Shown here: positions 10,332 through 46,938 of the stretch, piece by piece
How the letters are laid out: each line of letters begins with the position of its first letter
Numbering within the stretch: position 1 is the first letter of the stretch
From: an uncultured Planctomycetaceae bacterium
GTDB lineage: Bacteria > Planctomycetota > Planctomycetia > Planctomycetales > Planctomycetaceae
Assembly: GCA_937916515.1 (NCBI GenBank)
Contig: CALFSX010000267.1
Location: 1 to 49,985 of the forward strand
Reading direction: 5' to 3'
DNA length: 49,985 bases
The notes under the pieces: model-generated
What the model saw: the letters and a program-made list of their open reading frames with translations, nothing else
Told to the model about the DNA's origin: nothing
Database searches by the model: none
Made by a program: the position numbers and the translations under genes

Positions 10332-10944
10332 TTAATTTTCGGGGTTCAGGTTGCGGGCCTGGGTTCTGAACGGGCTGGCCGTTCAGCAATAACCGGGTCA
10401 GAGTCTTACGTAAAATGATGCGTGCAGGGCGCACATGATTCTTATGGTGACAACGGAGCGGCTCGGTGATTCAAACGTCCCACGTTTTTCCGCATAGCAC
10501 GCCACTGGTGCAAGGGCGAGGCCCTTGTTGGGTTGTGACGATCGCAAAGATTGTGCCAGTGGTGGCGGCAACGCCTGCAGTTTGAAGGCCATCAGTGTAT
10601 TCGCTGCTGAAACGGCAAATGCTGTGGCAACACTCAATTTCACGCATGGTCAATACTAGGCAAAATCCCCCGGAAACCAGTTCCGTCAATGGCGGAAGCA
10701 ATTTCCACGTGGTGGCGATTCGCAGCGATTGAACGCAGCTTGGAGGCGTGAGTGGTTTCACTCACGTGGCGGGATTCCACTCACGTGTGAAGGCGTCGCC
10801 TCACGTCTGCAACGTGCCCATGCCCGCAAACTTTGCCTAACCGTTACAAAGGTTAAGCGAAGAGGCAGCGAATCCGATGCTGATGAAGGACAGATTCTTT
10901 TTGGCGAAGCGTTGCTTCGTCGTGGGCCTCCGGCAAGCTTCATC
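10332..10944. promoter_or_regulatory. Divergent intergenic region between the two flagellar blocks
   Basis: These 613 bp separate the divergent flgF-like and fliL genes and must contain both promoters, though no sigma-28 or sigma-54 site could be recognised by eye. The region holds a full type-A repeat (10399-10527) and a cluster of short hairpins built on CGTGAGTG/CACTCACG (10747-10766), repeated as CCACTCACGTG at 10778-10788, then a GGCG/CGCC stem at 10792-10800. Reading frames through it are repeat-derived and not convincing. Confidence 0.55.
10399..10527 (-). repeat. Type-A dispersed repeat, copy 1
   Basis: A full-length copy (129 bp). It opens with CAGAGTCTTACGTAAAATGA, has the core GTGACAACGGAGCGGCTCGG and ends in the hairpin CAAGGGCGAGGCCCTTG. 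The variable stem is GTGC/GCAC. Orientation is given as minus because the hairpin end lies at the higher coordinate. Confidence 0.85.
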
Positions 10945-11481
10945 ATGGCAGAACCAGAAACACAATCAGAATCAGACGCCGGCGATCAGGCCGCGGCCAA
11001 AAAGGGAAGTATTGTCCCATGGCTGCTGGTGGGTATTGTGGCGGCAGGTCTTGGTGGCGCTGTGCCTATGTTTCTTCCGGAAGAAACCGTTGAAGAAGAT
11101 CCGGCGCCAAAGCCCATGTTTGAGCTTCCGACTCCGGAAAACACAATGTTCATTCCGTTTTCCGATCCGGAAGTGAAGGGCGACCAGCTTGTGGTCAACC
11201 TGAACGAAGGCAACCTCACGCGCTACCTGCGGATTGTTATCGAACTGCAGATACCCAAAGACTTCGAAACGGAGATTAAGGACAAGCTAAAAGAAAATCG
11301 CGTGCTGCTGCGAAGCTGGCTTATCAGCAAAATCTCAGACAAAGACCTGGAAAGCGTCCGCGGAGCTGCCGGTCAAAACCGCCTTCGCAGAGAAATTCAG
11401 GACCAATTCAATTCGGTGCTGTTTCCCGACGGCTACGATCGAATCTATGACGTTCTCTTTTACGAATTCGCCGTGCAATGA
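10945..11481 (+). CDS. fliL: Flagellar basal body-associated protein FliL
   Basis: FliL is a single-span inner-membrane protein that surrounds the stator units and supports torque. From the ATG at 10945 the product is 178 residues: a short acidic cytoplasmic tail, one membrane helix (about 22-44, IVPWLLVGIVAAGLGGAVPM) and a periplasmic domain with NLTRYLRIVIELQIPKD and the C-terminal YDVLFYEFAVQ. The frame is open back to 10729, but that extension runs through hairpin repeats and carries no family likeness. It heads the plus-strand block and overlaps fliM by 4 bp (ATGA). Confidence 0.88.
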   Translation: MAEPETQSESDAGDQAAAKKGSIVPWLLVGIVAAGLGGAVPMFLPEETVEEDPAPKPMFELPTPENTMFIPFSDPEVKGDQLVVNLNEGNLTRYLRIVIELQIPKDFETEIKDKLKENRVLLRSWLISKISDKDLESVRGAAGQNRLRREIQDQFNSVLFPDGYDRIYDVLFYEFAVQ

Positions 11482-12362
11482 CAGACTCAGAGAGTTTGAA
11501 GCCATTCAACTTTGCGTCGCCGGGCCACGTCAGTGGTTCCGTCAATCGCGCTTTGGACACGTGGCATCACCAGGCATGTGCGTTGCTGACAGAAAACTGG
11601 CAGAGCCTGCTGGGTGACGACATTTCTGTGAAGTGCGAAGGCGTGGATGTTGTATCGTGCAAAGTTGCTTACGAATCTGTGGCCGACCCGGGTTACGCGG
11701 CCAGCCTGAAAGTGGGGCCAGCCAATATGCCGGCTTTGGCAACATTTCCCGGACGTTTAGTCTGTACACTTGTGGAAGGGTTGTTGGGAAGCCAGGGCGA
11801 CGACTGGTCTGAATACAAGCCGCTTACCACCGTAGAATCTTCGATGCTGGAACTTCTTTGTGGCGAAGTCAGTCGAGCAATCGCGATGAGCTGGCCGGAA
11901 GTGATACCGCTGAAGTGCGAACTGGAATCGTGCGTGTTTCGCCCCAACCGTTCTCGCATTTTTGCACCCGACGAAAAAATGCTGCGACGACGTTTGGAAG
12001 TCACAACGGCTTTTGGAGCTGAAACAGCATGGTTGTTACTGCCTCAGGCTGGCCTCGCTGAATTAGGAATTTCCGACAGCGTGCTGACCGACGCTGCAGA
12101 AGTGATTCCTGACCCTCGGCTGCGAGAAATCGCCAAACAGTTGCCGGTGGAAATCGTCGTTAGTCTGGGCCACACAAAGGTTACTCTGGCAGAAATGAAT
12201 CAACTGGAAATCGGTGACTTTTTGGTGTTGGATCAAGCTCTTTCGCAGCCGGTGGAAGCCACTTTGGACGGCGAACTGCAGTGGCTGGGAATGCCGTGTC
12301 GCATCGGACGTCGTCAGGGAATTGAAATTATTGCGTCTAACAAGCGGCAGGGGGGAACATGA
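11478..12362 (+). CDS. fliM: Flagellar motor switch protein FliM
   Basis: FliM is the middle C-ring protein that links FliG to FliN. The 294-residue product has the CheC-like middle domain (TLVEGLLGSQGDDW around residues 96-109, then LTTVESSMLELL) and a C-terminal SpoA domain (residues about 215-290, VEIVVSLGHTKVTLAEMNQL). It starts almost directly with FNFASPGHVSGSVNRALDTW, equivalent to the first helix of the middle domain, so the usual N-terminal CheY-P-binding LSQ.EID.LL segment is absent. The start overlaps fliL by 4 bp and the end overlaps fliN by 4 bp, indicating coupled translation. Confidence 0.88.
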   Translation: MTDSESLKPFNFASPGHVSGSVNRALDTWHHQACALLTENWQSLLGDDISVKCEGVDVVSCKVAYESVADPGYAASLKVGPANMPALATFPGRLVCTLVEGLLGSQGDDWSEYKPLTTVESSMLELLCGEVSRAIAMSWPEVIPLKCELESCVFRPNRSRIFAPDEKMLRRRLEVTTAFGAETAWLLLPQAGLAELGISDSVLTDAAEVIPDPRLREIAKQLPVEIVVSLGHTKVTLAEMNQLEIGDFLVLDQALSQPVEATLDGELQWLGMPCRIGRRQGIEIIASNKRQGGT

Positions 12363-12784
12363 GCGATCCATCATCTGCAGCGGCTGATGTTGAAGAAAAA
12401 GCATCTCCGTCATACACACCCGCTGAGAACCTCAGCGCTGGGGCCGATCAAATTGGAGTTCAGGAAGCAAACCCGGTGGAATTTCCAGAAGCTCAAACAC
12501 GTTCATCCAATCAGTCACTATCTTTGGACCGCTTTGCTGATGTTCAGGTGGAACTTTCCGTAGAAATCGGGCGAGTATCCATGCCTATTGGCGAGCTGAT
12601 GAAGCTGGGCCAGGGGGCTGTCGTGAAACTCGATCGCGACATTGTGTCTCCCGTCAACGTGATGGCACAAGGAGTTCTAATCGCCAGTGGTGAAGTGGTG
12701 GTGATTGAAGATCGCTATGCCATTCGCATTACATCGATTCACGGACCAAAGGGGCAGGCCTCCGGCGATGCAAGGGGAATGTAA
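12359..12784 (+). CDS. fliN: Flagellar motor switch protein FliN
   Basis: FliN forms the lower C-ring and binds export cargo complexes. The 141-residue product has a polar, poorly conserved N-terminal half and a SpoA/FliN domain at about 57-130, with VQVELSVEIGRVSMPIGELM and the later ASGEVVVIEDRYAIRITSI. Length and domain order are normal. It overlaps fliM by 4 bp at the 5' end, and its TAA stop shares one base with the fliO ATG (TAATG). Confidence 0.92.
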   Translation: MSDPSSAAADVEEKASPSYTPAENLSAGADQIGVQEANPVEFPEAQTRSSNQSLSLDRFADVQVELSVEIGRVSMPIGELMKLGQGAVVKLDRDIVSPVNVMAQGVLIASGEVVVIEDRYAIRITSIHGPKGQASGDARGM

Positions 12785-13437
12785 TGAAGACGCCGCAGAG
12801 AAACACACGCTGCGCTTCTGCGGTTGCTTTGCTGGTAGCCGTTTTCTGTCTTGCGTGTCATTCAGGCTGCGCAATCGCTCAGGTGCCAGCCACGGCCGTC
12901 ACAAACGGATCTGGGATCATCGCGCAAGGCGGCTTGACCGCTGGTGGAACAATCAAAACCGCTAACAATCAGCGGGCTTTGTTGCTGTCGCTACGGTCGC
13001 AAAGCGAAGCGGCAGATCCCGGCTCGCCTGCAGAGCCCTTCATTGATCTCACGCAGCCAATCACAACACCTCAAGTGGCTACAGAAGATGGCATCAATCA
13101 GGATTCCATTATCAATCTGGCCATCTGGATGGTCGTCATTATGTGCCTTTGCGGTCTGACAGTGCTGGGCCTGCGAAGAATGAGTGTTCGCCAAATAAAG
13201 GTTGGCCAGGTGGCTGGTACTTCGCGAGTAGTAGACACATTGAATCTTGGCAAGCATCGTTTTGTACAGCTAATTGAAATTGGCGGACGCAGCGTCTTAG
13301 TGGCGTCAGACGCCAGCGGAATTCGATCTGTTCTGCCCATGGTTGATCAGTTTTCAGACACGTTATTTGAAGAAGCCGCCGACTCGATTTCCGGCCCCCA
13401 AACTTCGTCTCGCGAATTTTCGCAACTGGATCGGTAG
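12784..13437 (+). CDS. fliO: Flagellar biosynthesis protein FliO-like
   Basis: FliO helps assemble the FliP ring of the export gate. The 217-residue product has a signal-like hydrophobic N-terminus (residues 11-32), a periplasmic linker, one membrane helix at about 109-130 (INLAIWMVVIMCLCGLTVLG) and a cytoplasmic FliO domain with VDTLNLGKHRFVQLIEIGGR followed by SVLVASDASGIRSV. It sits between fliN and fliP, the canonical position, with a 1-bp overlap to fliN and 10 bp to the fliP start. The extra N-terminal segment makes it longer than the enterobacterial protein. Confidence 0.82.
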   Translation: MKTPQRNTRCASAVALLVAVFCLACHSGCAIAQVPATAVTNGSGIIAQGGLTAGGTIKTANNQRALLLSLRSQSEAADPGSPAEPFIDLTQPITTPQVATEDGINQDSIINLAIWMVVIMCLCGLTVLGLRRMSVRQIKVGQVAGTSRVVDTLNLGKHRFVQLIEIGGRSVLVASDASGIRSVLPMVDQFSDTLFEEAADSISGPQTSSREFSQLDR

Positions 13438-13447
13438 AGCAGCGACC

Positions 13448-14128
13448 ATGATGGAAGGTGCCGAAACAATTCAGCGAGTTCTGGAATCCGAAGGGATGCA
13501 GGAACTTTCGCCGCAACTGAAGGTCGCCCTGTTTCTGGGCGGAATGGCCTTCATTTCGTCGGCGCTGGTCACAATGACGGCGTTTACACGGATTGTGATT
13601 GTGCTGTCGTTTGTTCGCCGAGCACTCGCGACTCAGGAAATTCCGCCCACTCAGGTCATCATCGGGCTGTCGATGTTTCTGACGTTTTTTGTGATGGGCC
13701 CCACAATTTCCACGATCGAAAAGGACGCTCTGGCGCCTTACATGGAAGACAGTATCACCGGGGTTGAAGCAGTCGACATTGCCAGTTCGGCACTGCAGGA
13801 CTTCATGCTGAGGCAAACCAGAAAACGCGATATCGCGTTGTTTGCCGGCATGGCGAAGATCACTTCGATTTCAACGCCGCAGGATACCCCCATGCGAGTT
13901 CTGATTCCGGCCTATGTAATCAGCGAATTGAAAACAGCCTTCATCATGGGCTTCTGCATCTATATTCCGTTCATTCTAATCGACCTTGTGGTGTCAATTA
14001 TCTTGATGTCCCTGGGCATGATGATGATGCCGCCAATGGTAATTTCAACTCCCTTCAAGTTGCTGCTGTTTGTGGTCGTGGACGGTTGGGTATTGATTGC
14101 TCAGGCACTTAGTATGAGTTTTCGTTGA
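13448..14128 (+). CDS. fliP: Flagellar export gate protein FliP
   Basis: FliP forms the pentameric core of the type III export gate in the inner membrane. The 226-residue product from ATG 13448 carries FIXED family segments: ALVTMTAFTRIVIVLSFVRR, GLSMFLTFFVMGP, and the C-terminal block from RVLIPAYVISELKTAFIMGF to MMMPPMVISTPFKLLLFVVV. An in-frame start at 13343 lies inside fliO and adds basic residues without family likeness. Many FliP proteins have a cleavable signal peptide, which is not obvious here. fliQ and fliR, usually next, do not follow. Confidence 0.94.
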   Translation: MMEGAETIQRVLESEGMQELSPQLKVALFLGGMAFISSALVTMTAFTRIVIVLSFVRRALATQEIPPTQVIIGLSMFLTFFVMGPTISTIEKDALAPYMEDSITGVEAVDIASSALQDFMLRQTRKRDIALFAGMAKITSISTPQDTPMRVLIPAYVISELKTAFIMGFCIYIPFILIDLVVSIILMSLGMMMMPPMVISTPFKLLLFVVVDGWVLIAQALSMSFR

Positions 14129-14140
14129 CGACTTCATTCC

Positions 14141-14225
14141 CAAGGGCTTCGCCCTTGACCCGGTGGCGTGGCACGCAGCAGCACGTGGGGCGATGGAATC
14201 GCCGAGCCGCGACGTTGTCGCTGCG
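14141..14225 (+). repeat. Type-A dispersed repeat, copy 2 (truncated)
   Basis: The copy begins 13 bp after the fliP stop with the perfect hairpin CAAGGGCTTCGCCCTTG and continues through GGCGTGG and ATCGCCGAGCCGCGACGTTG. It ends about 14225 without the variable hairpin or the AAGACTCTAA end. The hairpin could also act as the 3' boundary of the fliL-fliP transcript, though no T-run follows. Confidence 0.8.
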
Positions 14226-14347
14226 GGCAGCTTGTCGGCAGCTTGCCGTAGAACTAATTACTGAAACATAACTAACCACTGCCCGGCATAAGTTGGCAGA
14301 CCACCTGGCTCTGGGCCACTTCGCCTGGATCTGTGCGATGTGCGGTG

Positions 14348-14377
14348 GCTGCTGCTACTGCTACTGCTACTGCTACT
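14348..14377. repeat. GCTACT hexamer microsatellite
   Basis: Two GCT triplets followed by four GCTACT units lie in the fliP-flhA gap, 31 bp before the flhA start. Being a multiple of three, length changes would not shift a frame, but there is no gene here; any effect would be on spacing upstream of flhA. Confidence 0.85.
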
Positions 14378-14407
14378 AAATCTCGACGCTTGAACCACTG
14401 TTAAATC

Positions 14408-16504
14408 ATGGCCAACCCTTCCAAAACAATTGCTCCCGAACGCGGCCTGCTGCAAAACAGCGAGAGTTTGCTGTCGTTTGGAATGTTGGGGGGCCTGATT
14501 GTGATGCTGGTACCGCTGCCACCGGCACTGCTGGACGCATTGCTGGCGATGAATCTGGGGCTCACGTTTCTGTTGCTGCTGATAACGCTAAGCACAAAGC
14601 GAGCGTTGGAGCTTTCCGTTTTTCCTTCGCTGCTGCTGCTGTTGACGCTGTTTCGCCTGTCACTGAATGTTGCCACCACGCGACTGATTCTGCTGGACGG
14701 CGATGCAGGCTTGATTGTGACGGCATTCGGAAATTACGTTGTCGGCGGGCAGTTGGTTGTCGGTTTGGTCATCTTTCTGATTCTGATAACGATTCAGTTT
14801 ATGGTGATCACAAAAGGTGCTGGCCGAATTTCTGAAGTGGCCGCCCGGTTTACTCTGGACGCTATGCCCGGCAAGCAAATGGCCATCGACGCAGAACTCA
14901 GCGCCGGTGCTATCGACGAAGTTGTCGCGCGTAAACGCCGCACCGAACTGTCTCGGGAAACCGAGTTCTACGGTGCGATGGACGGTGCCAGTAAATTCGT
15001 GCGAGGCGATTCTATTGCGGGCTTGATTATCACCGCAGTCAACCTGCTGGGTGGAGTCGTGATTGGGCTGATGCACGGTCTGTCTTTCGGCGATTCCGTT
15101 ACAACGTATTCGATCCTGACGGTTGGCGACGGGCTGGTTTCGCAGATTCCCGCGTTGGTGATCGCCACCACAGCCGGTATTCTGGTGACGAAGACAACAT
15201 CAGAACACAGCCTCGGCGACGAAATTCAAGGGCAGCTGCTTCGCCGCAACCAGCCAATCTATATTGGTGCCGGCGTTTTGGCCACGATGGGATTGATTCC
15301 CGGTTTGCCGAAGCTGCCGTTTTTCGGCATCGCGGCAGCGTTGTTGTTATTGCTGAACAGAGAAGATCCAACCGCCGAAATCGAAGTTGAAGAAGCCGCA
15401 GCAGCGGAAGGCGCGGCTCCCGCAGAATCGGAGTCCGATCAGATTGACGAATTTCTGTTGGCGGATCGAGCTGTTTTGGAAGTGGGTGCTCAGCTGGTTC
15501 CGTCAATCGCATCTGGTGCATCGAAGGGCCTGGCTGATCGAATCACCACACTTCGCAAGGAACTTTCGCGAGCCAACGGCGTTTGGATTCCGCCTGTTCG
15601 CGTCAACAGCAATCTGTTGCTGCAGCCCGACGAATATCGAATTATCGTCGCTGGTCGAACTGTAGCGACGTCCGAAGTGCTGAAGGATCACCTATTGGCA
15701 ATTTTGCCGGATCATCACAACGTGTCAGTTCCAGGCATCAACACTCACGAGCCATCGTTTGGCCTGGCAGCTCGCTGGGTGGCGGAAGCGGATCGACGTA
15801 TTGCCGAAGTTCAGGGCTGCACGGTTGTTGACCCTTTAAGTGTGCTGATTACGCATCTTGGCGAAGTGCTGAAAAAACATTCTCACGAACTGCTGACGCT
15901 GGAATCACTGAAACAAATGCTGAAGCGAGTTGAAAAATTCGCCCCCACGGTGGTGGAAGAAATTCGTCCGGAAACGCTCCGCATGGGAACTCTGCATCAG
16001 GTATTGGTGCAGTTGGCTGAAGACAGAATTCCGCTGAATGACCTGGCCCTGATTCTGGAATCAATCGTGAATCATGCTGCCACCGTTCAGGAAGTGAACG
16101 CGTTAACGGATAAAGTTCGATCAGATCTTGGCCGCCTTGTGTGCGAACGTTTCCGCAATCAGGAGGGCATGTTGCGAGTCATCACGCTGGCTCCTCAACT
16201 GGACAGCCAGCTAAGACAATCCATGCATGAAGGCCAGCTGGCAATTGGACCAGTACCGCTGGGCAATCTTATCCAACAGGTGGCAGCTGCCTGGCAGGAT
16301 AGTCACCGAAAACAACAGGATGCCGCCTTGCTTGTGGACAAAGCGTTGCGTCGCCCTTTGAAACAAGTGCTGGCGAGATCTGTCGCTGAACTTGGAATAA
16401 TCGGCTATCAGGAGGTGCCCTTCGACATGATTATCGATTCCGTATCCATGATTCCTCACGAAGCCATCTTCCCAGCTCGCCCCAAAGAACAAGCCGCCGC
16501 GTAA
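14408..16504 (+). CDS. flhA: Flagellar export gate protein FlhA
   Basis: FlhA is the large inner-membrane export-gate component whose cytoplasmic ring receives chaperone-cargo complexes. The 698-residue product has about eight membrane helices in residues 20-315 and a cytoplasmic domain to the end. The FHIPEP signature is intact: RFTLDAMPGKQMAIDAELSA at residues 147-166. Length is normal. It starts 280 bp after fliP, separated by a truncated type-A repeat and a hexamer microsatellite, so it is probably transcribed from its own promoter. Confidence 0.97.
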   Translation: MANPSKTIAPERGLLQNSESLLSFGMLGGLIVMLVPLPPALLDALLAMNLGLTFLLLLITLSTKRALELSVFPSLLLLLTLFRLSLNVATTRLILLDGDAGLIVTAFGNYVVGGQLVVGLVIFLILITIQFMVITKGAGRISEVAARFTLDAMPGKQMAIDAELSAGAIDEVVARKRRTELSRETEFYGAMDGASKFVRGDSIAGLIITAVNLLGGVVIGLMHGLSFGDSVTTYSILTVGDGLVSQIPALVIATTAGILVTKTTSEHSLGDEIQGQLLRRNQPIYIGAGVLATMGLIPGLPKLPFFGIAAALLLLLNREDPTAEIEVEEAAAAEGAAPAESESDQIDEFLLADRAVLEVGAQLVPSIASGASKGLADRITTLRKELSRANGVWIPPVRVNSNLLLQPDEYRIIVAGRTVATSEVLKDHLLAILPDHHNVSVPGINTHEPSFGLAARWVAEADRRIAEVQGCTVVDPLSVLITHLGEVLKKHSHELLTLESLKQMLKRVEKFAPTVVEEIRPETLRMGTLHQVLVQLAEDRIPLNDLALILESIVNHAATVQEVNALTDKVRSDLGRLVCERFRNQEGMLRVITLAPQLDSQLRQSMHEGQLAIGPVPLGNLIQQVAAAWQDSHRKQQDAALLVDKALRRPLKQVLARSVAELGIIGYQEVPFDMIIDSVSMIPHEAIFPARPKEQAAA

Positions 16505-16535
16505 AGCTGAAGACTAACATCTCGGAAAGTCCCAT

Positions 16536-16745
16536 TTGTCCACTGAGTCACGAAAACTAAACGAACGCACCATCGTTAACGGCATCGGCCTGGTAATGAC
16601 ATCCGCCATTTTTTTGGTGTGTGCTTATCGGCAGGTGGGTCTTTCCACAGCCGTTATTCGAGCAGTCGTGTGCGGATTGTTATGTGCCACAGCGGTGCGG
16701 GTTTTGTCGAGAGTTATCGCAGCCGCGTCCGACGACGACGAATAA
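16536..16745 (+). CDS. Small two-helix membrane protein, unknown
   Basis: A 69-residue protein with two likely membrane helices (GIGLVMTSAIFLVCAYR around 17-33 and AVIRAVVCGLLCATAVRVL around 39-57) and an acidic DDDE tail. The start is a TTG 31 bp after the flhA stop; the only internal ATG would remove most of the first helix. I do not recognise a family. Its place directly behind flhA suggests co-transcription, and a link with the flagellar system is inferred only from that. Confidence 0.55.
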   Translation: MSTESRKLNERTIVNGIGLVMTSAIFLVCAYRQVGLSTAVIRAVVCGLLCATAVRVLSRVIAAASDDDE

Positions 16746-16820
16746 GAAAAGTGCGGCATGCTTCTGTGAGTTAGCTCGCCAGCATGCCCGAAGAGACAGA
16801 TATCCGAAAGGCGATTTATC

Positions 16821-17054: not shown

Positions 17055-17171
17055 CCCTGAATGATCGACGTGTCGGATGGCACCGTTACGAAGTCCCTTG
17101 AAAGCCGCCGATCTGCTTTTCCGGATCCGGCCGCAATTACGCAGCACCACCCGTACTAACGGCTTGCAATC

Positions 17172-20331: not shown

Positions 20332-20433
20332 ACGTCTGGCAAAGTGACAATCATCAATAGCCGCCCACCTGGTGTTGAACCTGCCAGCGAATGTGGCGAC
20401 GATGAATTATTAGCTGTACAGCGCCAAGTCTGT

Positions 20434-20505
20434 ATCAGCCGCAAGGCGTTAGCCTCGGTTTTTCCACTGATTCGCAGCAACCGAGTCTAACGCCCTGCGG
20501 CTGAT
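20434..20505. repeat. Long inverted repeat (27-bp arms)
   Basis: The left arm (20434-20460, ATCAGCCGCAAGGCGTTAGC and on) pairs with the right arm (20479-20505) with two mismatches in 27 bp around an 18-nt loop. It lies between the convergent hydrolase and methyltransferase genes and could form a bidirectional transcript end, although T-runs are lacking. A partial relative (CAGCCTGCGGGCTAACGC) lies near 21512. Confidence 0.85.
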
Positions 20506-20550
20506 GTGGATCACAGAAAACTGACGTTTCATCAAACCTGGCGCTGTCCA

Positions 20551-20673
20551 GTTAGAGTCTTACTCAAAATGATGCGCGGACCATTGCTCGTAGCGACAAC
20601 GGAGCGGCTCGGCGATTGCAACGTCCCACGTTGTCTTGCGATCCACGCCACTGAGTCAAGGGCGAAGCCCTTG
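20551..20673 (-). repeat. Type-A dispersed repeat, copy 3
   Basis: A full copy: GTTAGAGTCTTACTCAAAAT at the left end, core AGCGACAACGGAGCGGCTCG, and the terminal hairpin CAAGGGCGAAGCCCTTG ending at 20673. The methyltransferase stop codon (20674-20676) is the very next base. In this copy the variable arm pairs poorly. Confidence 0.88.
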
Positions 20674-21477
20674 TTATGGGGTCCAGATTGCGGAGGACGT
20701 GGCTGGCTTCTGTTCAGAAGATCTTGGCAGCCGTCTCGCCTTCATACGTACATATGGAGGAATGAAGCGTCCTCGATAGCCATAACGCGTGACGTTTGCT
20801 TTGTAGTCTGCTCTTAATGGTTCTCGCAGATCTTCCAGCACCATGTTTGATCGACACAGTCCGCCGATCAGATCTTCCAGTCGATGAAGATATTCCGTGG
20901 TACCGGCTTCTCGATAAGACGTATCGATTTGTTGAGGCAATGGCCCCTTGTGATAATATTCCACACCGATAACGAACTGATGCCGTTCGTTGCGATGACT
21001 TATCTGCAAGCTGACTGGCTGTTTGTGCTGGCTGATGTACGTTCCGTTGTCTCGCAGCACTCTAGCAATTTCTGCATACATCGGACACAAGTCGGGAATA
21101 TAACAGCTGCTCACCGGCTGATGAACGATGTCGAACGAAGCGTCGGACAGCATTCTGAGATCGTCCATCGAACCCTGAATGGCTTTCACCTTCACGCCTC
21201 GACGTTGGGCCTCCTGCAGATCCAGGTGCAGCATTGAATCGCTGATATCAATGACGGTTACGTTTGCTCCGGCAACCGCGTACAGAATCGATTGCCATCC
21301 GCCGCCGGACGCAAGACATAGTACGTCAAGGTCTTTCACTGAATCAGGCAACCAACCGCGACCATCCAGAACTTTCAACGGAGTTCGGCAGTCTTCGTCA
21401 CTGGCTGTGCGAGCAAACAAACTGCCTGCATCTGCCATGCGATTCCAGGTGTTGCGATTAACTTTTTGATAGTCCAC
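20674..21477 (-). CDS. Class I SAM-dependent methyltransferase
   Basis: A 267-residue cytoplasmic protein with a Rossmann-type methyltransferase core: motif I LCLASGGGWQSILYA (about 53-67), the acidic second-strand end VTVIDIS, and the post-motif SFDIVHQPVSSCYI. The C-terminal part contains EVYYHK-like and Arg-rich segments typical of small-molecule methyltransferases; the substrate is unknown. The start is a GTG. The stop codon abuts the end of a type-A repeat, so the last residues (SSEQKPATSSAIWTP) may have been altered by repeat insertion. It converges with the secreted hydrolase gene. Confidence 0.83.
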   Translation of the reverse strand: MDYQKVNRNTWNRMADAGSLFARTASDEDCRTPLKVLDGRGWLPDSVKDLDVLCLASGGGWQSILYAVAGANVTVIDISDSMLHLDLQEAQRRGVKVKAIQGSMDDLRMLSDASFDIVHQPVSSCYIPDLCPMYAEIARVLRDNGTYISQHKQPVSLQISHRNERHQFVIGVEYYHKGPLPQQIDTSYREAGTTEYLHRLEDLIGGLCRSNMVLEDLREPLRADYKANVTRYGYRGRFIPPYVRMKARRLPRSSEQKPATSSAIWTP

Positions 21478-31998: not shown

Positions 31999-32122
31999 GT
32001 TTTGGTGGACATCGCCCACCAAAACACACGGCCAGCCAGAGCACTTGCCGCAAAGTTAAGTTAAGTAGGGTGGGCACCGCCCACCAAAATATACGGCCAA
32101 CCAATGGTGGGCAGTGCCCACC
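31999..32122. repeat. Three tandem GTGGGC-type hairpins
   Basis: Three related palindromes: GTTTTGGTGG/CCACCAAAAC (31999-32025), GGGTGGGCACCGCCCACC (32068-32084) and GGTGGGCAGTGCCCACC (32106-32122). The spacers share an ACGGCCA(A/G)CCA motif. They lie in the 5' region of the sulfatase transcript, between the Gfo/Idh stop and the sulfatase start. Confidence 0.85.
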
Positions 32123-34751: not shown

Positions 34752-34923
34752 CTAAACATCGCCACCCAATGCACCGGAGCGGCTACGGCAGGGGGAGTTG
34801 TAAAATTGCGAGTCACGGGCAGAGGATTAAGCACGCTTTCAGGTTGAAACGCCGTTGGCTGTGTCGCTTATGTGCGACGTTCCATTCTATTTAGCCTTCT
34901 TTATTTCACGAAAATCGTTCCCA

Positions 34924-35023
34924 TTGAGTCAATGTTTTCTGAGCGACAGCGGAGCGGTTCGGCGATTCGAGCGTTCCATGTTTTTTTGCGATCCACGCCA
35001 CTGGGTCAACGGCGAGGCCTTTG
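34924..35023 (-). repeat. Type-A dispersed repeat, copy 4 (truncated, diverged)
   Basis: The copy contains GAGCGACAGCGGAGCGGTTC, TCCACGCCACTGGGTCAA and a decayed terminal hairpin (CAACGGCGAGGCCTTTG). The AGAGTCTTAC end and the variable hairpin are missing, replaced by GAGTCAATGTTTTCT, which is also found beside copy 6 (43138). It ends 12 bp before the start of the membrane-protein gene. Confidence 0.75.
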
Positions 35024-35035
35024 TTCGGTAAAGGT

Positions 35036-39160: not shown

Positions 39161-39228
39161 AAGACGTTTGTTCGTCTGAATGCAGAGCACTCGTTGCTCA
39201 CCAAAAACGTTTGTTCACTGGGATCGAC

Positions 39229-40365: not shown

Positions 40366-40381
40366 ACTTACCGGCTAACTA

Positions 40382-40514
40382 CAAGGGCTTCGCCCTTGAC
40401 CCAGTGGCGTGGATGGCGGGATGATGTGGGACGTTCGAATCGCCGAGCCGCTCCGTTGTCGCTACGACAAACACGCGAGCACCGTCCGCGCATCATTTTG
40501 AGTAAGACTCTAAC
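40382..40514 (+). repeat. Type-A dispersed repeat, copy 5
   Basis: A full copy in the opposite orientation to copies 1 and 3: hairpin CAAGGGCTTCGCCCTTG, GGACGTTCGAATCGCCGAGC, GCTCCGTTGTCGCTACGAC, a variable hairpin around GCGAGCACCGTCCGCGC, and the end ATTTTGAGTAAGACTCTAAC. Directly behind it (40519-40540) is a second shared motif also present at 43181-43203. Confidence 0.9.
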
Positions 40515-40518
40515 TAGT

Positions 40519-40540
40519 CCGTGCCTCAGACCATTCGAGC
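40519..40540. repeat. Short shared motif beside repeat copy 5
   Basis: CCGTGCCTCAGACCATTCGA and two following bases match, with one difference, the reverse complement of 43181-43203 beside copy 6. Both lie at type-A repeats, so they may be one larger unit. Confidence 0.7.
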
Positions 40541-40657
40541 TATCGCCAGGAAACGCGACTACGTCGCTCAGTAAACCTGACTCAATGTGAACATGTTCGC
40601 TGCACTATGTCGTGTAGATATCTCTGATTTCGTACTCCAAACATCTGGAACCATTCA

Positions 40658-41407: not shown

Positions 41408-42110
41408 GCTTGCGAAGTATGATAAGGCGGATGGAGTTTGCCGGACCGGAAGCTTCATCCACCTGACATTCTGCGTCTTCTGGGCCCATATCTTCCCAGC
41501 GTCGGTTAATATCGGTGCCAAAAGGGCGAGTTAGAAAATTCAATATTCGGCGGCCAACTGAAGGTCGATGACCGCCGTGCAGGAACTTGTCCAGCACAAC
41601 AAGACGTCCGCCGGGTTGCAGAACTCGCATGGCTTCTGCGACGCATGTTCGCGGATTTGGAACCACAGAAACGATCAGCGTCAACACCACCAGGTCAAAC
41701 GCCTGATTTGCCAGCGGCAGCCGCTGAGCGTCACCGCACACCGAGACAAACGGCAGGCTTAACGACGTGGCTTTACGATTGGAGCGTGACAGCATTGTTG
41801 TGCTCAGGTCGATGCCAACCAGCACGTCGAGTTCAGTTTGCATCGTCGCCAAAATTGGCAGGTCGGCCCCTGTCCCCACACCGACTAACAGCACACGCCG
41901 TGCATTTGCCGATGCGGCGATAGAAAGTGCTTTCCGGCGAACAGCGGTGACCGGGTGGTACTTTAAAAGGGCGTCATAAACTGGAGCCCACAGCGAAAAC
42001 ACGACCGCGTTCCAGCGGTTGGAGAATGTCAAAAGTCTGACTTCTTTCGCAACAGATTGTTCGACAAAGTTACAGGGAAAACCATCGATTCGCTGCGGTA
42101 GAAATTTCAT
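41385..42110 (-). CDS. Class I SAM-dependent methyltransferase (UbiE/PmtA-like)
   Basis: A 241-residue methyltransferase. After WNAVVFSLWAPVYDALLKYH comes motif I (RVLLVGVGTGADLPIL), the acidic second strand VLVGIDLS, FDLVVLTLIVSVVPN and a typical LQPGGRLVVLDKFLH, closest to the UbiE and phosphatidylethanolamine N-methyltransferase group; lipid or quinone methylation is a guess. The ATG at 42110 is chosen over a TTG at 42152. Its 3' end overlaps the convergent signal-peptide methyltransferase by 23 bp. The 5' end is divergent from the 74-residue gene at 42195. Confidence 0.85.
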   Translation of the reverse strand: MKFLPQRIDGFPCNFVEQSVAKEVRLLTFSNRWNAVVFSLWAPVYDALLKYHPVTAVRRKALSIAASANARRVLLVGVGTGADLPILATMQTELDVLVGIDLSTTMLSRSNRKATSLSLPFVSVCGDAQRLPLANQAFDLVVLTLIVSVVPNPRTCVAEAMRVLQPGGRLVVLDKFLHGGHRPSVGRRILNFLTRPFGTDINRRWEDMGPEDAECQVDEASGPANSIRLIILRKPIAASET

Positions 42111-42194
42111 CGGCACAGTACGTGCAACAAGAACAGGTGTCTGTTCTGTCAACGACCAGCTTCTGTCCGTTACGTACTGATTGAAAGCCCGATC

Positions 42195-42419
42195 ATGTCT
42201 TTTGTTCGAATCGAAACCAGCGACAATGATACTCGCTGGATCAATCTTTTGCAGGTGAGTCGCGTTACGTTTGGCCGCGACGAATCTGGTGTCGACGTGT
42301 TGGTCGCAGTGTTTGCGGATGGCAACGTGGGCGACTGTTTAAAGATTCGTGGCACCGACGAAGTGAATCGAGCGGCGATTCTGGAATTTCAGCGTGCCCT
42401 GAATCATCACTGCGAATAG
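42195..42419 (+). CDS. Small hypothetical protein
   Basis: A 74-residue acidic protein with alternating strands (FVRIETSDNDTRWINLLQVS, VDVLVAVFADGNVGDCLKIR) and a C-terminal helix. The composition looks coding and the start is a clear ATG. I recognise no family; the WINL..V..V pattern is reminiscent of small beta-barrel proteins. It is divergent from the methyltransferase gene. Confidence 0.55.
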   Translation: MSFVRIETSDNDTRWINLLQVSRVTFGRDESGVDVLVAVFADGNVGDCLKIRGTDEVNRAAILEFQRALNHHCE

Positions 42420-42618
42420 AGCCTCACGCTTAGCAGAATACTTTCCGAATTCGGCACAACACAATGACAGCGAATCCAGCTGTTGGCCGCGCAGAACCCG
42501 AATTGCATTATGAGGGCTGGTTCCCGCCAGCCAGAACCGTCCACAACAACAGGTCAACGGCTCTGGTTTTCCGACGGACGTTTTCGATGGAACAACGTAG
42601 AGTAGCCCTGTGTGGCCG

Positions 42619-43077
42619 TTATGGATGCACAAATTCGTGTTCTGGATGACGAACCGTCAGCACGGGACACGGTGCTTTGCGGACAACTTTTTCCGCGACG
42701 CTGCCCATCAACATGTGCGTGAATGCGCCTCTTCCGTGCGTGCCCATAACAATCATGTCTGCGTTGCTGGCTTTGGCGTGCTTAATGATTTCCACAAACG
42801 GAAACCCGTCAACAATAATCCTATTGACCGGAAAAGCGTAGTCGGCCCATTCCGAGTGTAGTTCTTCCATTTGCTGTTCTGCGTCAGAACGCATGCTTTG
42901 CTTCAGAACTTCCATCGGTTGATAGCTAAGCAGCGCGTTGGCTGGCACGGGTTCAACCACATGCAACAGGTCAACCGCAGCGGCGAATTGATCAGCAAAG
43001 GCGATGGCGTACATTAATGCCGTTTTGCCTGGTTCGCTGAAGTCTATGGGCATCAGAATTCTTTTGATATTCAACAT
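42619..43077 (-). CDS. Universal stress protein, ATP-binding type
   Basis: A 152-residue UspA-family protein. It starts with IKRILMPIDFSEPGKTAL and carries the ATP-binding pattern VMGTHGRGAFTHMLMGSVAE (residues 110-129), ending in CPVLTVRHPEHEF. Usp proteins bind ATP/AMP and modulate stress survival. A second Usp gene lies 193 bp upstream on the same strand, with a different sequence but the same PEH(E/K)F ending, which points to an old tandem duplication. Confidence 0.93.
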   Translation of the reverse strand: MLNIKRILMPIDFSEPGKTALMYAIAFADQFAAAVDLLHVVEPVPANALLSYQPMEVLKQSMRSDAEQQMEELHSEWADYAFPVNRIIVDGFPFVEIIKHAKASNADMIVMGTHGRGAFTHMLMGSVAEKVVRKAPCPVLTVRHPEHEFVHP

Positions 43078-43137
43078 GACCGATAGCCTTTCGTGAGAGG
43101 TAGGTTGGAATTCTTAAAGCAGCAAACTTGTTCACGT

Positions 43138-43170
43138 TGAGTCAAGTTTTCTGAACGACAACGGAGCGTT
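43138..43170 (-). repeat. Type-A dispersed repeat, copy 6 (fragment)
   Basis: Only TTTTCTGAACGACAACGGAG and a few flanking bases remain. The preceding GAGTCAAGTTTTCT matches the left side of copy 4, indicating a shared truncated subtype. The motif at 43181-43203 follows. Confidence 0.6.
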
Positions 43171-43270
43171 TCTGAGCGGCAGCTCAAATGGTCTGAGGCA
43201 CGGCCTCGTTGGAATTCGTACAGTGCTGTTCAATCAGCATCCGTCAAACACTGAAACAATGCTTTGCGTT

Positions 43271-43744
43271 TTAAAGTGAGACGAACTTGTGCTCAGGATC
43301 GCGAACCGTTAACACGGGGCATGTAGAACTGCGGACCAACAGGTCGGCCACGCTTCCCATCAATACGTGAGCCAGCCCGGAACGACCGTGGGTTCCCGTC
43401 ACCAGCAGGTCGGCATTGGTCGTTTTCACAAACGACAGAATTTCCGGAACCGCAAATCCCATGCGAATGGCGCGTTTTACTTTCGTGGCGTCAGTAATTG
43501 GCGCAGTCGGCATGTGTCCCAGAGCGGTCAGGGCCACTTCGTTCATCTGCCGTTCGCAGTCGGCAATGTTGATTCCGTAATCAACCTGACATTGTTCAAC
43601 GAACTGTGCGATGGGATACACAACAACGTGCAGAATAGTCAGTTCGGCGTCGAACTTCGCAGCAAGTTCACACGCCGCCGCAACGGCGCATTCACTTAGT
43701 GGACTCAGATCTGTGGTGACGACGATTCGATTAAGAGAAATCAT
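43271..43744 (-). CDS. Universal stress protein, ATP-binding type, second copy
   Basis: A 157-residue UspA-family protein starting LNRIVVTTDLSPLSECAVAA, with the ATP-binding pattern VTGTHGRSGLAHVLMGSVAD and the ending CPVLTVRDPEHKF. The ATG at 43744 has GAGG upstream (TTGAGGCAGCTT) and is preferred over the in-frame TTG at 43756. It lies upstream of the other Usp gene in the same direction, separated by a repeat fragment, and downstream of the cytochrome gene by 91 bp. Confidence 0.92.
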   Translation of the reverse strand: MISLNRIVVTTDLSPLSECAVAAACELAAKFDAELTILHVVVYPIAQFVEQCQVDYGINIADCERQMNEVALTALGHMPTAPITDATKVKRAIRMGFAVPEILSFVKTTNADLLVTGTHGRSGLAHVLMGSVADLLVRSSTCPVLTVRDPEHKFVSL

Positions 43745-43835
43745 AAGCTGCCTCAATTGGCCGCAATGTTGCGGTAAGTTTGTCTGCCAGGTTGCCCTGA
43801 CTTTGGGTGAGTCAGACTGACGTCGCAGCGAAGTG

Positions 43836-44381
43836 CTACTTCGCCAGTTTTAGTTGTGCCAGTTCAGCCGCAGGGTTGTTTGGCCCCAGATCGGCAATCG
43901 CCATGTCTCGCACCCATTGATGGCACTGAATGCAGCTCATGGTCACATCCATCCATGCCAGAGCGGCGCCGTCGATGGATTGCTTTTCTGCCTTGGATTT
44001 GAGTTGTTCAACGCTGCGCCGAAATTCCTGGCTGTGCTGCATGTACATCATGTTTGTGGAAGCACGCCATTTTTCATGGTTGCTCATTGTCAGCAACTGG
44101 TCAGCTCCCTTGGTTACCAGAGTCAATTCGTCTGTCACCAATCCTCGAAGAATCAAATTGGACGAAGCCAGCTTCTTCAGCATGAAATCTTTTAACAAAA
44201 CGGTGACGGGTTCTTCGTCGTCCGCTGATGCTGCAGGCTTGGTCTGAGGAGTTTCGTCACTTGCGACTTTCTGCTGCATGGCGGCAACCGGCTGAGCTGC
44301 AACGTTGTGCGTCTGGCTTAGAATCGCAAAGCCGATCGAAAGAACCCCCAGAAACGTAAAGGCGGCTGTAAACTTCGTCAT
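43836..44381 (-). CDS. Small c-type cytochrome (single CxxCH)
   Basis: A 181-residue exported protein: signal peptide FTAAFTFLGVLSIGFAILSQ, an acidic linker, then a helical domain with one haem site C150-I-Q-C-H154 near the C-terminus. The late position of CxxCH and the helical bundle character (LKKLASSNLILRGLVTDELT) resemble cytochrome c-prime-like or planctomycete cytochrome proteins. The ATG at 44381 is supported by a GGAGAA site upstream. It heads a same-strand run with two Usp genes; a redox or stress link is inferred from context only. Confidence 0.8.
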   Translation of the reverse strand: MTKFTAAFTFLGVLSIGFAILSQTHNVAAQPVAAMQQKVASDETPQTKPAASADDEEPVTVLLKDFMLKKLASSNLILRGLVTDELTLVTKGADQLLTMSNHEKWRASTNMMYMQHSQEFRRSVEQLKSKAEKQSIDGAALAWMDVTMSCIQCHQWVRDMAIADLGPNNPAAELAQLKLAK

Positions 44382-45009
44382 GAAAGTTCTCCGGAAATGA
44401 GGGTGTGGCTGATGACTGTCAGCATTCGATTGGCGAATAACTATCTGTTCAACAGTCTTACGCAAACGTTGTTCCACACGGCGGTCTGTAAGTGGTTCCA
44501 GCGTTAACGTTGCTCGTTCTTCCGGCATGGTGGCGTTTATAGCCGACATATCGCGTTACGATCTTCAGAAAGCCGTGCTGGCGTGTGATGCCGAATCTGC
44601 CACGCAGGCTGGTTCCACAGACGCGGCGGCTCAGAAACGTGCGGATTGGCTCAATCACGACAAAAAGCGCGCGGATTGTCTCAGGTTGAGTAATGGTTTG
44701 TGACAGCTAAAAAAGCGGTCTGGTTGTAGTGGACGACGTTACGAGTCCCTTTTCGTTGCCGTCTCATCTGGACTCGTGACCTCGTCCACGACCCAGCAAA
44801 TTAAGTGGACCAGACCACTAGTGGCAGGTGTGAAGCCGTACCGGCGTGTTCTGGTTACTGAGTCTGGTCCACGGATGAAACACCGATTTGCACAGATGTT
44901 CTTATGCTGCACAATGCGGTCAACACATCGAGATCTGTGAACATCTGTGTTTCGTCCGTGGCCAATGTGACCTGCGGCTAATTCCTTCGATCGCTAACAC
45001 ACAGCGACG
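44382..45009. other. Intergenic region with long stem-loop
   Basis: These 628 bp lie between the ion-channel and cytochrome genes, both on the minus strand. The stretch 44382-44549 is open in the cytochrome frame but outside its likely start. The main structure is the stem-loop at 44717-44816. The rest shows no gene. Confidence 0.55.
44717..44816. repeat. Nested stem-loop, near-perfect 20-bp inner stem
   Basis: The inner stem is GTGGACGACGTTACGAGTCC (44729-44748) against GGACTCGTGACCTCGTCCAC (44770-44789), with one mismatch and one G-T pair, around a 21-nt loop. An outer GGTCTGG (44717-44723) can pair with CCAGACC (44810-44816). Confidence 0.85.
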
Positions 45010-46011
45010 TTACACGGGAGTTTTGCTGGATTCCAGCAGTTTGGTCAGCTGTGCCAGGTTTACTGAGTTTCCAAACGCAAACAGGCTGTCGTGGGGCATG
45101 ATGACCAGGTCGCCCGGTGGCGGGAAAATTTTGTCGCCGTTTTCTCGACGTACACCCAGCAGCATAATTCCGTCTTCTCGCAGTGACGTATCTTTCAGAC
45201 GCTTGTTAACAAGGTGAGAACCTTCGGGCACCTGGACGTCCGCGATTTCCCAGTCGACGCCTTCGCTTTCGGCCACCTCAACAAAGTTTTCAATACTTGG
45301 CGACAACATGAAACGAGCCATGCGGATGGCGCCGGAAGATAGCGGATTGATGACTCGGGTTGCACCGGCCTGCTGCATCTTGCGGACAGCTGTGTCGTTG
45401 CTGGCTCTGGCTACAATCTGCAGCCTGTTGTTTAACAGCCGAGCTGACAAGACCACGTACAAATTGTCTGCGTCGGTGGGAAGCACTGTTGTGAGTGCTC
45501 TGGCGTTGGCAATTCCGGCTCGTTCCAGAACTTCGTCCTGAGTCGCATCGCCGCATAAAAACAGCCAGCCATCCTGACGCATTTCAGGCGTCAGCAGATC
45601 TTCTTCTTCGTCGATGACCACGAAGCGTTGATTTCTTTGATAAAGATAGTCGCACAATTCGTGGCCCATGCGACCGAACCCACAGATAATGAAGTGGCCG
45701 CTTAGCTTATTGATTTCCTTTTCCATCGCGCGTTGCTCCCAAACTGATCGAATGTCTGAGTTGACCAGAATCTGGCCGAACTGAAAAGCGCTGTAGGCGA
45801 AGACACCAAGGCCCAGAGCCAGATAGACAATAATAAAACCCATCGTCGCATCGGTCATCTGCGGCGGTTCCTGTGAACCAACGGTCGCCAGCAGGATGAA
45901 TGCCTGATAGAAGCAAATCAGAAATCGTTGCCCCGTTAGTATCTGAAGGCTGATTGCTCCGAAAAGCAGCATCGCCAAAATCAGCAGAGGGATTTGCAGA
46001 AGTTTTCGCAT
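45010..46011 (-). CDS. Two-helix ion channel with RCK (TrkA-N/TrkA-C) domain
   Basis: A 333-residue protein: two membrane helices (about 4-25 and 58-80) flanking a pore loop, then a cytoplasmic RCK domain with NAD-type Rossmann motif HFIICGFGRMGHELCDYL (Gly111-Gly113-Gly116) and a TrkA-C domain at the end. The layout matches MthK-like potassium channels. The pore segment is ATVGSQEPPQ (Thr43-Val44-Gly45-Ser46), not the usual TVGYGD or TVGFGD, so ion selectivity may differ. Single gene on the minus strand. Confidence 0.85.
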   Translation of the reverse strand: MRKLLQIPLLILAMLLFGAISLQILTGQRFLICFYQAFILLATVGSQEPPQMTDATMGFIIVYLALGLGVFAYSAFQFGQILVNSDIRSVWEQRAMEKEINKLSGHFIICGFGRMGHELCDYLYQRNQRFVVIDEEEDLLTPEMRQDGWLFLCGDATQDEVLERAGIANARALTTVLPTDADNLYVVLSARLLNNRLQIVARASNDTAVRKMQQAGATRVINPLSSGAIRMARFMLSPSIENFVEVAESEGVDWEIADVQVPEGSHLVNKRLKDTSLREDGIMLLGVRRENGDKIFPPPGDLVIMPHDSLFAFGNSVNLAQLTKLLESSKTPV

Positions 46012-46204
46012 CGGAATGCGGTCAGTGTTTCAGCAGATGAGGTTCGTTAGCAGGAACGCAGACAGTGTAGCAGATTGCGACCAGTTTAATCGATCGTGAA
46101 AGCCGCTCATTCCTAACAAGGGAATCGCCCAACGCCGTGAAGGATTCTGAAAAGCAAAAATGCAGTTTAAACTGGAGAAGAGGCTGTCATGCAGGATGTG
46201 TTTT

Positions 46205-46400
46205 AGTCACGAAGTGACGTTAGGTAGTAGCCACGGTCGGGAGCCCGTGGTTTGTAGAAAGTCAGACGGAAAGTCCCGAAGGGACGATAGGCATATCATT
46301 TCGCGTTGTTGCCTGTCGTCCTTTCAGGACTGAAAACGACTGTCGAATGCTGTTCCACGGGCTCGCGCCCGTGGCTATCACCTGGCGTCACTTCGTGACT
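46205..46400. repeat. 196-bp long palindrome made of smaller hairpins
   Basis: The outer arms 46205-46250 and 46355-46400 match as inverted repeats at about 40 of 46 positions. Inner arms (GTCCCGAAGGGACGATAGGC against a GCCTGTCGTCCTTTCAGGAC partner) also pair. Each arm contains small hairpins (GTCAC/GTGAC, CCACGG/CCGTGG, GTCCC/GGGAC). Confidence 0.88.
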
Positions 46401-46473
46401 TCAAAGCTTCCCAACGCCAGACTGCGGTCTTTCTCTGTAACTCACGGTTTCCCGCTGAAAAATCCCTCACGGC

Positions 46474-46605
46474 GTTGGGCTTCGCCCTTGCCCCAGTGGC
46501 GTGGTTGGCTGGAAGACGTAGGCCGTTCAAACCGCCGAGACGCTCCGTTGTCGCTACGACCAACTTGCGACCACCGTGATCGCATTATTTTAAGAGAGAC
46601 TTTAA
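46474..46605 (+). repeat. Type-A dispersed repeat, copy 7
   Basis: A full copy: GTTGGGCTTCGCCCTTG at one end, CGCTCCGTTGTCGCTACGAC in the core, a variable hairpin GCGACCACCGTGATCGC, and TTTTAAGAGAGACTTTAAG at the other end. The hairpin end has two changes that shorten its stem. Confidence 0.88.
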
Positions 46606-46806
46606 GGAATACCATGCGAATGCGCGAAACGGATCTGACGGGGATGCCGGAATATTAGATGGCGGCCCGGCAGCGCTGTTGCAAACTGCCTTTACGGGAA
46701 ACTCAGGCACCCTGCAGTACCGGCATCGATACGCCGACCGTGCAACCAAACATCTTGTTTATGTGTGCAAAACAAGGCCATGGGTTGGAAATTGTCAGTG
46801 CGGAAC

Positions 46807-46938
46807 CTTAGAGTCTTCCTTGAAAATGATGCGCACACGGTGCGCATCGTTCTGGTCGCGACAACGGAGCAACTCGGCGTTTTAAACGTCCCGCGTCCTG
46901 CCCCATGCCACGCCACTAGGGCAAGGGCGAAGCTCTTG
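46807..46938 (-). repeat. Type-A dispersed repeat, copy 8
   Basis: A full copy: CTTAGAGTCTTCCTTGAAAA, a perfect variable hairpin GCGCACACGGTGCGC, core GTCGCGACAACGGAGCAACT, and the terminal GCAAGGGCGAAGCTCTTG. It is oriented opposite to copy 7, so the CAAGGGC ends of the pair point outward. Confidence 0.88.

Follow-up and report, generated by a model that had tools for sequence, protein, structure and literature searches.

REP, BIME and REPIN repeats, which go with RAYT (TnpA_REP) proteins, occur in high copy number between genes, carry a hairpin with a tetranucleotide foot and form tandem clusters. A REP is a single palindrome of 20–40 nt with the foot GTAG (GT[AG]G) or CGTC, and the Y1 gene is flanked by copies of the repeat. 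REP termini have been reported to supply stop codons to flanking genes, and CGTC-tagged REPs to be an abundant tagged repeat without a dedicated transposase (PMC3733652). Class 3 TnpA_Y1 proteins with high-copy secondary structures are reported from Planctomycetes and Acidobacteria; these structures are described as atypical hairpins with the four-letter foot CnGA, present in hundreds of copies (PMC6006769). Non-autonomous elements of the IS200/IS605 type have no inverted ends, carry an end hairpin and are inserted in one orientation 3' of a tetramer.

The window analysed here is a stretch of 49,985 nt from an uncultured Planctomycetaceae bacterium, and it contains copies of a repeat of about 134 nt (family A). 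A resembles the REP system in its copy number, intergenic position, footed hairpin and tandem clusters, but it has several parts with a long non-palindromic body, its foot is CTAA, and no Y1 gene was found beside it. A and the CGTC-tagged REPs are both abundant and tagged, whereas tag, size and body differ. In common with the Class 3 structures, A occurs in this phylum in hundreds of copies and has atypical hairpins on a four-letter foot; the sequence of the foot differs. A also has the three features of IS200/IS605-type elements given above, but no related TnpA sharing its ends was found, and it shows no clear strand bias. No published description of A was found at the level of titles and abstract openings. 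The copies in the window and the features adjoining them are as follows.

10399–10530, + strand: full A copy (nhmmer, 117.9 bits), with the tetramers TCAG at the left and TTGG at the right
14141–14240, − strand: A copy without the left 30 nt (profile match)
20403–20558, no strand assigned: D-long repeat beside the A copy at 20552, with inverted ends CTGGACAGCGCCA and TTAG at its end
20552–20676, + strand: full A copy (profile match)
20674–21477, − strand: gene adjoining the A copy at 20552; its conserved last residues IWTP and stop abut A
34917–35026, + strand: chimera with a B-like left half (34891–34962 matches B) and an A right half (profile match)
40381–40513, − strand: full A copy, head-to-tail with a B copy (profile match)
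40510–40616, − strand: B copy on the upstream side of the 40381 A copy, TTAG being common to both (profile match)
43103–43210, + strand: B copy (profile match)
46477–46605, − strand: A copy, right end lost by fusion to another repeat (CGCCCAACGCCGTGA...) (profile match)
46808–46940, + strand: full A copy (profile match)

The first-pass annotation had listed eight A copies in the window. Seven of these places match one A profile, and the remaining one, 43138–43170, lies in the B copy 43103–43210, a member of a sister family. The genome-wide search that the annotation had proposed gave hundreds more: 220 copies were found in a sample of 2.29 Mb (27% of the genome), and extrapolation from this sample gives roughly 700–800 for the whole genome. 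The window is somewhat richer, with seven copies in 50 kb against one per 10.4 kb in the sample. As had been described for the window, both orientations occur (121 + and 99 −) and the copies lie between genes; only 3 of the 220 overlap a gene called by our home-made gene caller by more than half. A strict pattern, a 21-nt block with at most two mismatches, gave 410 matches genome-wide and none for the reversed control, which excludes a chance origin of the family. Amplification of A is patchy across related genomes. A 62-nt exact block had no match in a scan of named genomes, which may omit the window's own genome, and a shorter block matched 13 stretches, all in MAG HKST-UBA52. Overall, A does not favour either strand with respect to the genes beside it. 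Convergent genes flank 40 of 205 copies and 156 of 1045 spacers, a difference that is not significant (p 0.11); in the first sample only, the values were 23 of 97 and 78 of 548.

The ends of A are sharp and fixed, TTAGAGTCTTACTC and CTAACAAGGGC, and unlike each other. In the sense of the preceding genes, the element reads 5'-(C)CTAA / CAAGGGC-NNN-GCCCTTG ... core ... GAGTAAGACT / CTAA-3'. The earlier description of A as palindromic applies to the conserved right-end hairpin CAAGGGC-NNN-GCCCTTG, not to terminal inverted repeats, of which comparison of the ends gave none. Of three copies folded, one forms a left-end hairpin, and such a hairpin is visible by eye in copies of genome G012. An 11-nt unit is gained and lost in this G+C-rich left part (length classes of 92 long and 30 short copies); the left 'hairpin' is therefore partly a product of slippage.

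Both ends carry, in one orientation, the tetramer TTAG, which reads CTAA on the opposite strand. At left ends, the top strand has TTAG in 67 of 122 cases and CTAA in none. At 203 right ends, the bottom strand has CTAA in 94 and TTAG in 5, the other tetramers including CCAA (20), CTGA (9), TTAA (7) and CGAA (7). The base before CTAA at the right end is C in 51 of 94 on the bottom strand, and among 49 sites not sorted as ends of other repeats the corresponding top-strand base is G in 37. The two tetramers are identical in 36 of 90 copies, 32 of them with TTAG and 4 with another sequence, so that a 4-bp target duplication is indistinguishable from tetramers borne by the element; deviating tetramers seldom agree between the two ends. 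Tandem joints with one common tetramer were found at C142 and C162 (TTAG), C179 (TTAA) and C115 (TTGA). Only a single clean uninserted paralogous site was identified: the A copy L019 on C255 is located at the one TTAG present in a D-long repeat, and this repeat is uninterrupted, with that TTAG, at C172, C9 and C277. In the window, the left TTAG of the A copy 20552–20676 is the end of the D-long repeat 20403–20558. The spacer orthologous to that of the A copy 14141–14240 is about 160–210 nt shorter in five congeners, and A is absent there.

The right end of A is frequently located at a stop codon. Converging gene stops within 60 nt of A right ends number 69 across 199 testable copies, and in 45 of these copies the stop is at offset 0, i.e. 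the right-end tetramer contains the exact stop codon of the neighbouring gene. The corresponding number at left ends is 5 of 130 (right versus left, Fisher p 1e-6). In the window, the right tetramer of the copy 20552–20676 holds the TAA stop of the gene 20674–21477 (−). Without the gene caller, ORFs of at least 150 codons enter 179 A right ends with the tetramer in frame 39 times, and in the other frames 3 and 2 times; 36 of the 39 terminate at the tetramer. A occupies CTAA at 26 of 163 gene stops versus 67 of 1692 other intergenic sites (odds ratio 4.6, p 2e-8). In all three genes checked, the stop position is kept within one residue in congeners without A at the locus, and in these three genes the stop codons are native. 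B right ends without a following A never coincide with the stop of a long ORF (0 of 18).

A cognate RAYT, which had been proposed as a partner of A, was sought and none was found beside A. The Y1 loci examined were 6 in this genome and 19 in G004, G005 and G012, with flanks up to 1.5 kb, several shorter at contig ends. None of these 25 genes in four genomes has A within 1.3 kb, and an autonomous relative in which A ends enclose a TnpA gene was not found at any of the loci. A degraded A copy (model 27–132, 57.9 bits) and a fragment lie about 1.4 kb from the C131 Y1 gene, separated from it by an ORF; a partial A lies about 1.8 kb from the C184 Y1 gene, and a fragment of 18.6 bits is present at the G005 locus L169; such pieces are expected by chance because the density of A is one per 10 kb. 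Where the genome's own Y1 genes have side hairpins, these are not A. Those of L032, L034 and L036 (TGGTGGGCG-type, GTAGGGCCGG-type and D repeat) are recurrent in a 1.25-Mb sample, those of L031 and L033 are repeated in their own flanks and were not found elsewhere in this sample, and at L035, at a contig edge, no side hairpins were seen. Single-ended matches, sought as traces of an autonomous copy with A ends, comprised 7 with the left end only and 7 with the right end only in 1.5 Mb, one of which is truncated by the end of its contig; they were judged by eye on 90–115 bases each, so that an autonomous copy may still be among them. A replication-strand bias, as single-strand transposition would predict, was 54/81 in the first sample (p 0.004) and weakened to 96/167 in a larger sample with GC skew as proxy (p 0.06; contig-flip p 0.0495, one-sided).

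The ends of A bear on two other origins. If A were a MITE of a DDE transposon whose insertion duplicates a 4-bp TTAG target, TTAG at both ends would be accounted for; YTAR-type target duplications belong to the IS5 family, and inverted ends and TTAG flanks are indeed present in the neighbouring D-long repeat. This origin is nearly refuted by the single orientation of the target, CTAA being found at 0 of 122 left ends, and A is without terminal inverted repeats; we consider it very improbable. An integron attC-like site, in which CCTAACAA would resemble an R'' box overlapping the stop codon, is scarcely credible. Such a site would agree with the CCTAACAA end and with the stop codons that this end overlaps, but attC requires an inverted partner box at the opposite end (R''/R'), and the end tetramers of A are direct, which largely refutes this reading. 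Moreover, the base two before CTAA at A right ends (G 26, A 22, T 25, C 21) has no purine preference, and A copies are scattered in both orientations.

Two further readings concern the enzyme and the RNA. Mobilization by a site-specific recombinase (IS110/IS1111-type DEDD, tyrosine or serine) through a circular intermediate with a TTAG core, not by Y1, seems rather unlikely to us. The core on both sides, the fixed orientation and the tandem joints fit any circle-and-core mechanism, and the lack of a Y1 partner found for A speaks for a recombinase against Y1. The sole IS110-type (PF01548) match in the genome, however, has an internal stop codon and no A within 1.5 kb. The first-pass statement that no transposase is near any copy holds for the types tested, the Y1 genes and this one IS110-type gene. 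It is quite improbable that A is a conserved 3'-UTR or small-RNA element under selection for an RNA function, mobility being merely its origin. In favour of this reading, the hairpin begins directly behind many stop codons, and its stem is strongly conserved in sequence. Against it, covariation is almost nil (two-sided change in 1 of 20 consensus pairs among 37 sequences, covariation term −0.01), A has no Rfam match at the gathering threshold, there is no overall strand preference relative to neighbouring genes, and A is absent behind the congener orthologs of three genes. The suggestion of a structured RNA is therefore not supported. Of the two results that the first-pass annotation named as refuting its view, alignment to a known family did not occur in Rfam, and the genome search gave hundreds of further copies, although less densely than in the window.

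The non-autonomous mobile element, the other possibility raised earlier, draws support from the fixed ends and oriented tetramer, the uninserted site with a single TTAG, the tandem joints sharing a tetramer and the absence at orthologous loci in congeners. Our best explanation, for which we see about an even chance, is that A is a REP-like element of this kind, which a trans-acting, strand-specific enzyme places 3' of (C)CTAA. The enzyme would recognize the end hairpin or hairpins of A and the tetramer on one strand, A would be excised or copied via a single-stranded or circular form, and it would then be joined 3' of a CTAA, resulting in CTAA on both sides. As TAA is part of CTAA, a gene would be spared by insertion at its own stop, and such insertion, with selection, would leave many A copies there. 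The most likely enzyme, and the weakest step, may be an IS200/IS605-like HUH (Y1) transposase that is lost, diverged or located elsewhere. More tentatively, and with less confidence than in the element itself, A may belong to an undescribed CTAA-tagged mobile family of planctomycetes, of which it would be the most abundant member found here and whose putative enzyme homes on (C)CTAA and thus on native stops, a gene-sparing 'safe harbour' that would permit hundreds of copies.

If the explanation is right, A adds to the REP-like elements one that has a long body, the new tag CTAA and no visible transposase, and that has spread to perhaps 700–800 copies while sparing genes partly via their stop codons. 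Its insertions would be a large natural data set on target choice by such elements, and many genes may have gained a new 3' hairpin from A. Identification of the enzyme would yield an integrator that is specific for one strand and for a target of four letters including a stop codon. In the same window, Acido-Lenti-1 (RF01687), which is a structured intergenic motif like A, gives the sole Rfam match, at 46355–46400, outside A.

Family A, the dispersed repeat reported in the first-pass annotation, is real. Seven of the eight listed window places match one profile, and the place at 43138 is instead part of a copy of the sister family B (43103-43210). The A consensus (top strand) is TTAG-AGTCTTACTCAAAATGATGCGCGCACGGTGCGCGCATGTTGGTCGTAGCGACAACGGAGCGGCTCGGCGATTCGAGCGTTCCACGTCTTCC-N-GC-NN-ACCACGCCACTGGGTCAAGGGCGAAGCCCTTG-TTAG, about 134 nt in length. 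The genome search called for at that stage was performed on the own genome (8.33 Mb in 343 contigs), in which the window makes up the entire contig C267. With a 21-nt A block and at most two mismatches, 206 + 204 matches were obtained, and the reversed control gave 0. A profile made from 45 copies was then searched against 2.286 Mb (46 whole or partial contigs, 27% of the genome), resulting in 220 A copies, 122 of them full; 105 copies are located in the first 1.25 Mb of this sample. Extrapolation gives about 800 copies for the whole genome, which may be too high because many sampled contigs were picked for length or earlier matches. Only three of the 220 copies overlap a called gene (home-made hexamer gene caller) by more than half, though called genes cover 81% of the sample. 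The pairwise identity among 90 full copies has a median of 81% and a maximum of 96%, so that most copies must be old. C63:1-100000 is 100 kb without any A copy, and the last 37 kb of this contig contain five.

A is best read as a REP-like non-autonomous element with a new tag, CTAA; it is abundant and without a visible transposase. The copies start and stop sharply, with TTAG-AGTC... at the left and ...CCCTTG-TTAG at the right, and comparison of the two ends revealed no terminal inverted repeats. The left end is TTAG in 67 of 122 copies and CTAA in none. Of 203 right ends, 94 read CTAA on the bottom strand and 5 read TTAG. The base just beyond the right end (top strand) is G in 37 of the 49 sites not sorted as another repeat's end; the base beyond the left end has no clear preference. 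A thus targets bottom-strand (C)CTAA, in a single orientation. One A copy (L019, contig C255) is located within a long repeat, which is also present in the window:

20403-20558, D-long repeat, with inverted ends CTGGACAGCGCCA and TTAG at the ends in several copies (others at C172:17179, C9:35058 and C277:1475).

In C172, C9 and C277, D-long is uninterrupted and has just one TTAG where A is inserted in the C255 copy. D-long contains a D-type REP pair, and D hairpins flank the Y1 (RAYT/IS200-type transposase) gene of locus L036. Head-to-tail A copies have one common tetramer: TTAG at C142 and C162 (where the second copy runs past the contig end), TTAA at C179 and TTGA at C115. A longer array was also found:

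L210 (contig C318) 3879-4625, tandem A-type array of eight units: seven are right halves (about 88 nt each) and the remaining one is almost complete.

B has the core AGCGACAACGGAGCG in common with A and likewise ends in hairpin-TTAG. A directly follows 33 of 51 right-complete B copies, with the tetramer in common, and B is located upstream in 26 of 90 full A copies. Chimeras of both kinds, B-left/A-right (34917 in the window) and A-left/B-right, were observed. Full A copies fall into 92 long and 30 short ones; the short class, roughly a quarter, lacks an 11-nt unit in its left part.

A is frequently located directly 3' of stop codons. Within 60 nt of 199 right ends there are 69 converging gene stops, and 45 of these stops fall exactly on the last three bases of the tetramer (CTAA 26, CTGA 5, CTAG 4, TTAA 3, ATAA 3, ATAG 2, TTAG 1, GTAG 1). 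No other offset has more than four cases, and left ends show offset 0 in 5 of 130. In a caller-free test on 179 right ends, which overlap the gene-caller set, ORFs of at least 150 codons enter with the tetramer in frame 39 times (36 end there), and 3 and 2 times in the other frames. A occupies 26 of 163 CTAA at gene stops versus 67 of 1692 elsewhere between genes (odds ratio 4.6, p = 2e-8). The relative G012, from the same family, is identical over 300 bases at each of two loci to the MAG 'Planctomycetaceae bacterium HKST-UBA52', and the host is called a planctomycete on this basis. In G012/HKST-UBA52, 4 of 17 A-like right ends are the stop of an ORF of at least 100 codons, and two such ORFs enter in another frame. 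B right ends without a following A coincide with an ORF stop in 0 of 18 cases.

For three of the 45 genes, the native stop was checked. Proteins corresponding to the window gene 20674-21477 end in IWTP, one in IWTPE (seven congeners and one paralog of the own genome). Among six congeners of the C152 gene, four end in RERKLT and two are one residue shorter, and seven congeners of the C115 gene end in RRWIS or near; one C115 ortholog keeps tccTAAc with A absent. The A profile search of the 21 orthologous or paralogous loci found no A; the sole weak match (10.6 bits, core only) is B-like sequence 3' of the stop in the ortholog of the C152 gene in the relative G005. As the stop position is kept in congeners without A, A settled directly 3' of a pre-existing stop codon in these three genes. 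Other B-resembling hairpin sequences (CGAGCTGACGCTCGGAA) are located directly 3' of orthologous stops at L298 (G005) and L302 (relative G001), as if other members of A's kind used the same site.

A mobile origin of A is well supported. In five congeners, the two genes that flank A at window locus 14141 are separated by a spacer which, by coordinates, is shorter by about 160-210 nt. These spacers have no A, and the single 9.8-bit match, in G003, falls within the neighbouring gene. One search detected A matches in 11 of 58 genomes, and another, within the family, in 26 of 170 (overlapping genome sets, own genome included; stricter filters). Many copies are present in the own genome and G012 (55 of 57 candidates scored). 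G005 has 11, G065 has 5 with a strong best match, and other congeners have 0-4, mostly weak.

For the mechanism, the target site, the orientation and the tandem joints are observed, and the enzyme and an intermediate are inferred. Only the geometry points to an enzyme class for A: insertion takes place in one orientation 3' of a four-letter site, this tetramer is present at either end, and the element has an end hairpin. The cognate RAYT-type partner sought was not found among the six Y1 genes of the own genome: no A is located within 1.3 kb of any. Further out, the C131 gene has a degraded copy and a fragment at about 1.4 kb, and the C184 gene a partial copy at about 1.8 kb, as expected by chance at one A copy per 10 kb. 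Among 19 Y1 loci of G004, G005 and G012, one has an A fragment (18.6 bits), near the locus edge. Several of the Y1 loci searched end at contig ends. The single IS110-type match in the genome has an internal stop codon and no A nearby. A replication-strand bias of A (96 of 167, p = 0.06) is not established. Three of the six Y1 genes have side hairpins that recur in the sample, and two have local ones; the hairpins differ among L031 (C216), L032 (C131), L033 (C107), L034 (C171) and L036 (C184). By eye, the L031 gene appears to be followed by a shortened duplicate of its 5' part.

REP termini are reported to supply flanking genes with stop codons (PMC3733652); A is a CTAA/TAA analogue of this in a far longer element. 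Planctomycete class 3 TnpA_Y1 genes are reported with high-copy structures whose foot is CnGA (PMC6006769), unlike that of A.

The other early reading, a structured RNA, is unsupported on present evidence. A has no Rfam match at the gathering threshold, and the consensus fold of 37 copies shows two-sided change in 1 of 20 pairs. Against shuffles, three copies folded as RNA (both strands) gave z of +0.2 to -2.8, and two folded as DNA gave -0.9 to -3.6; it is the copy whose left palindrome is best that accounts for the stronger values. Two other window features were noted:

46355-46400, match to Rfam Acido-Lenti-1 at 46.1 bits, lying in an arm of an inverted pair whose other arm is 46194-46250.
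32004-32038 and 32069-32103, GGTGGGC...GCCCACC hairpin, present twice and similar to the repeat next to the C131 Y1 gene (L032).

Between the genes of the 1.25-Mb sample, 12-mers of the Acido-Lenti-1 match occur again 7-10 times; thus, what Rfam lists as an 'sRNA' may in the own genome be a mobile repeat.
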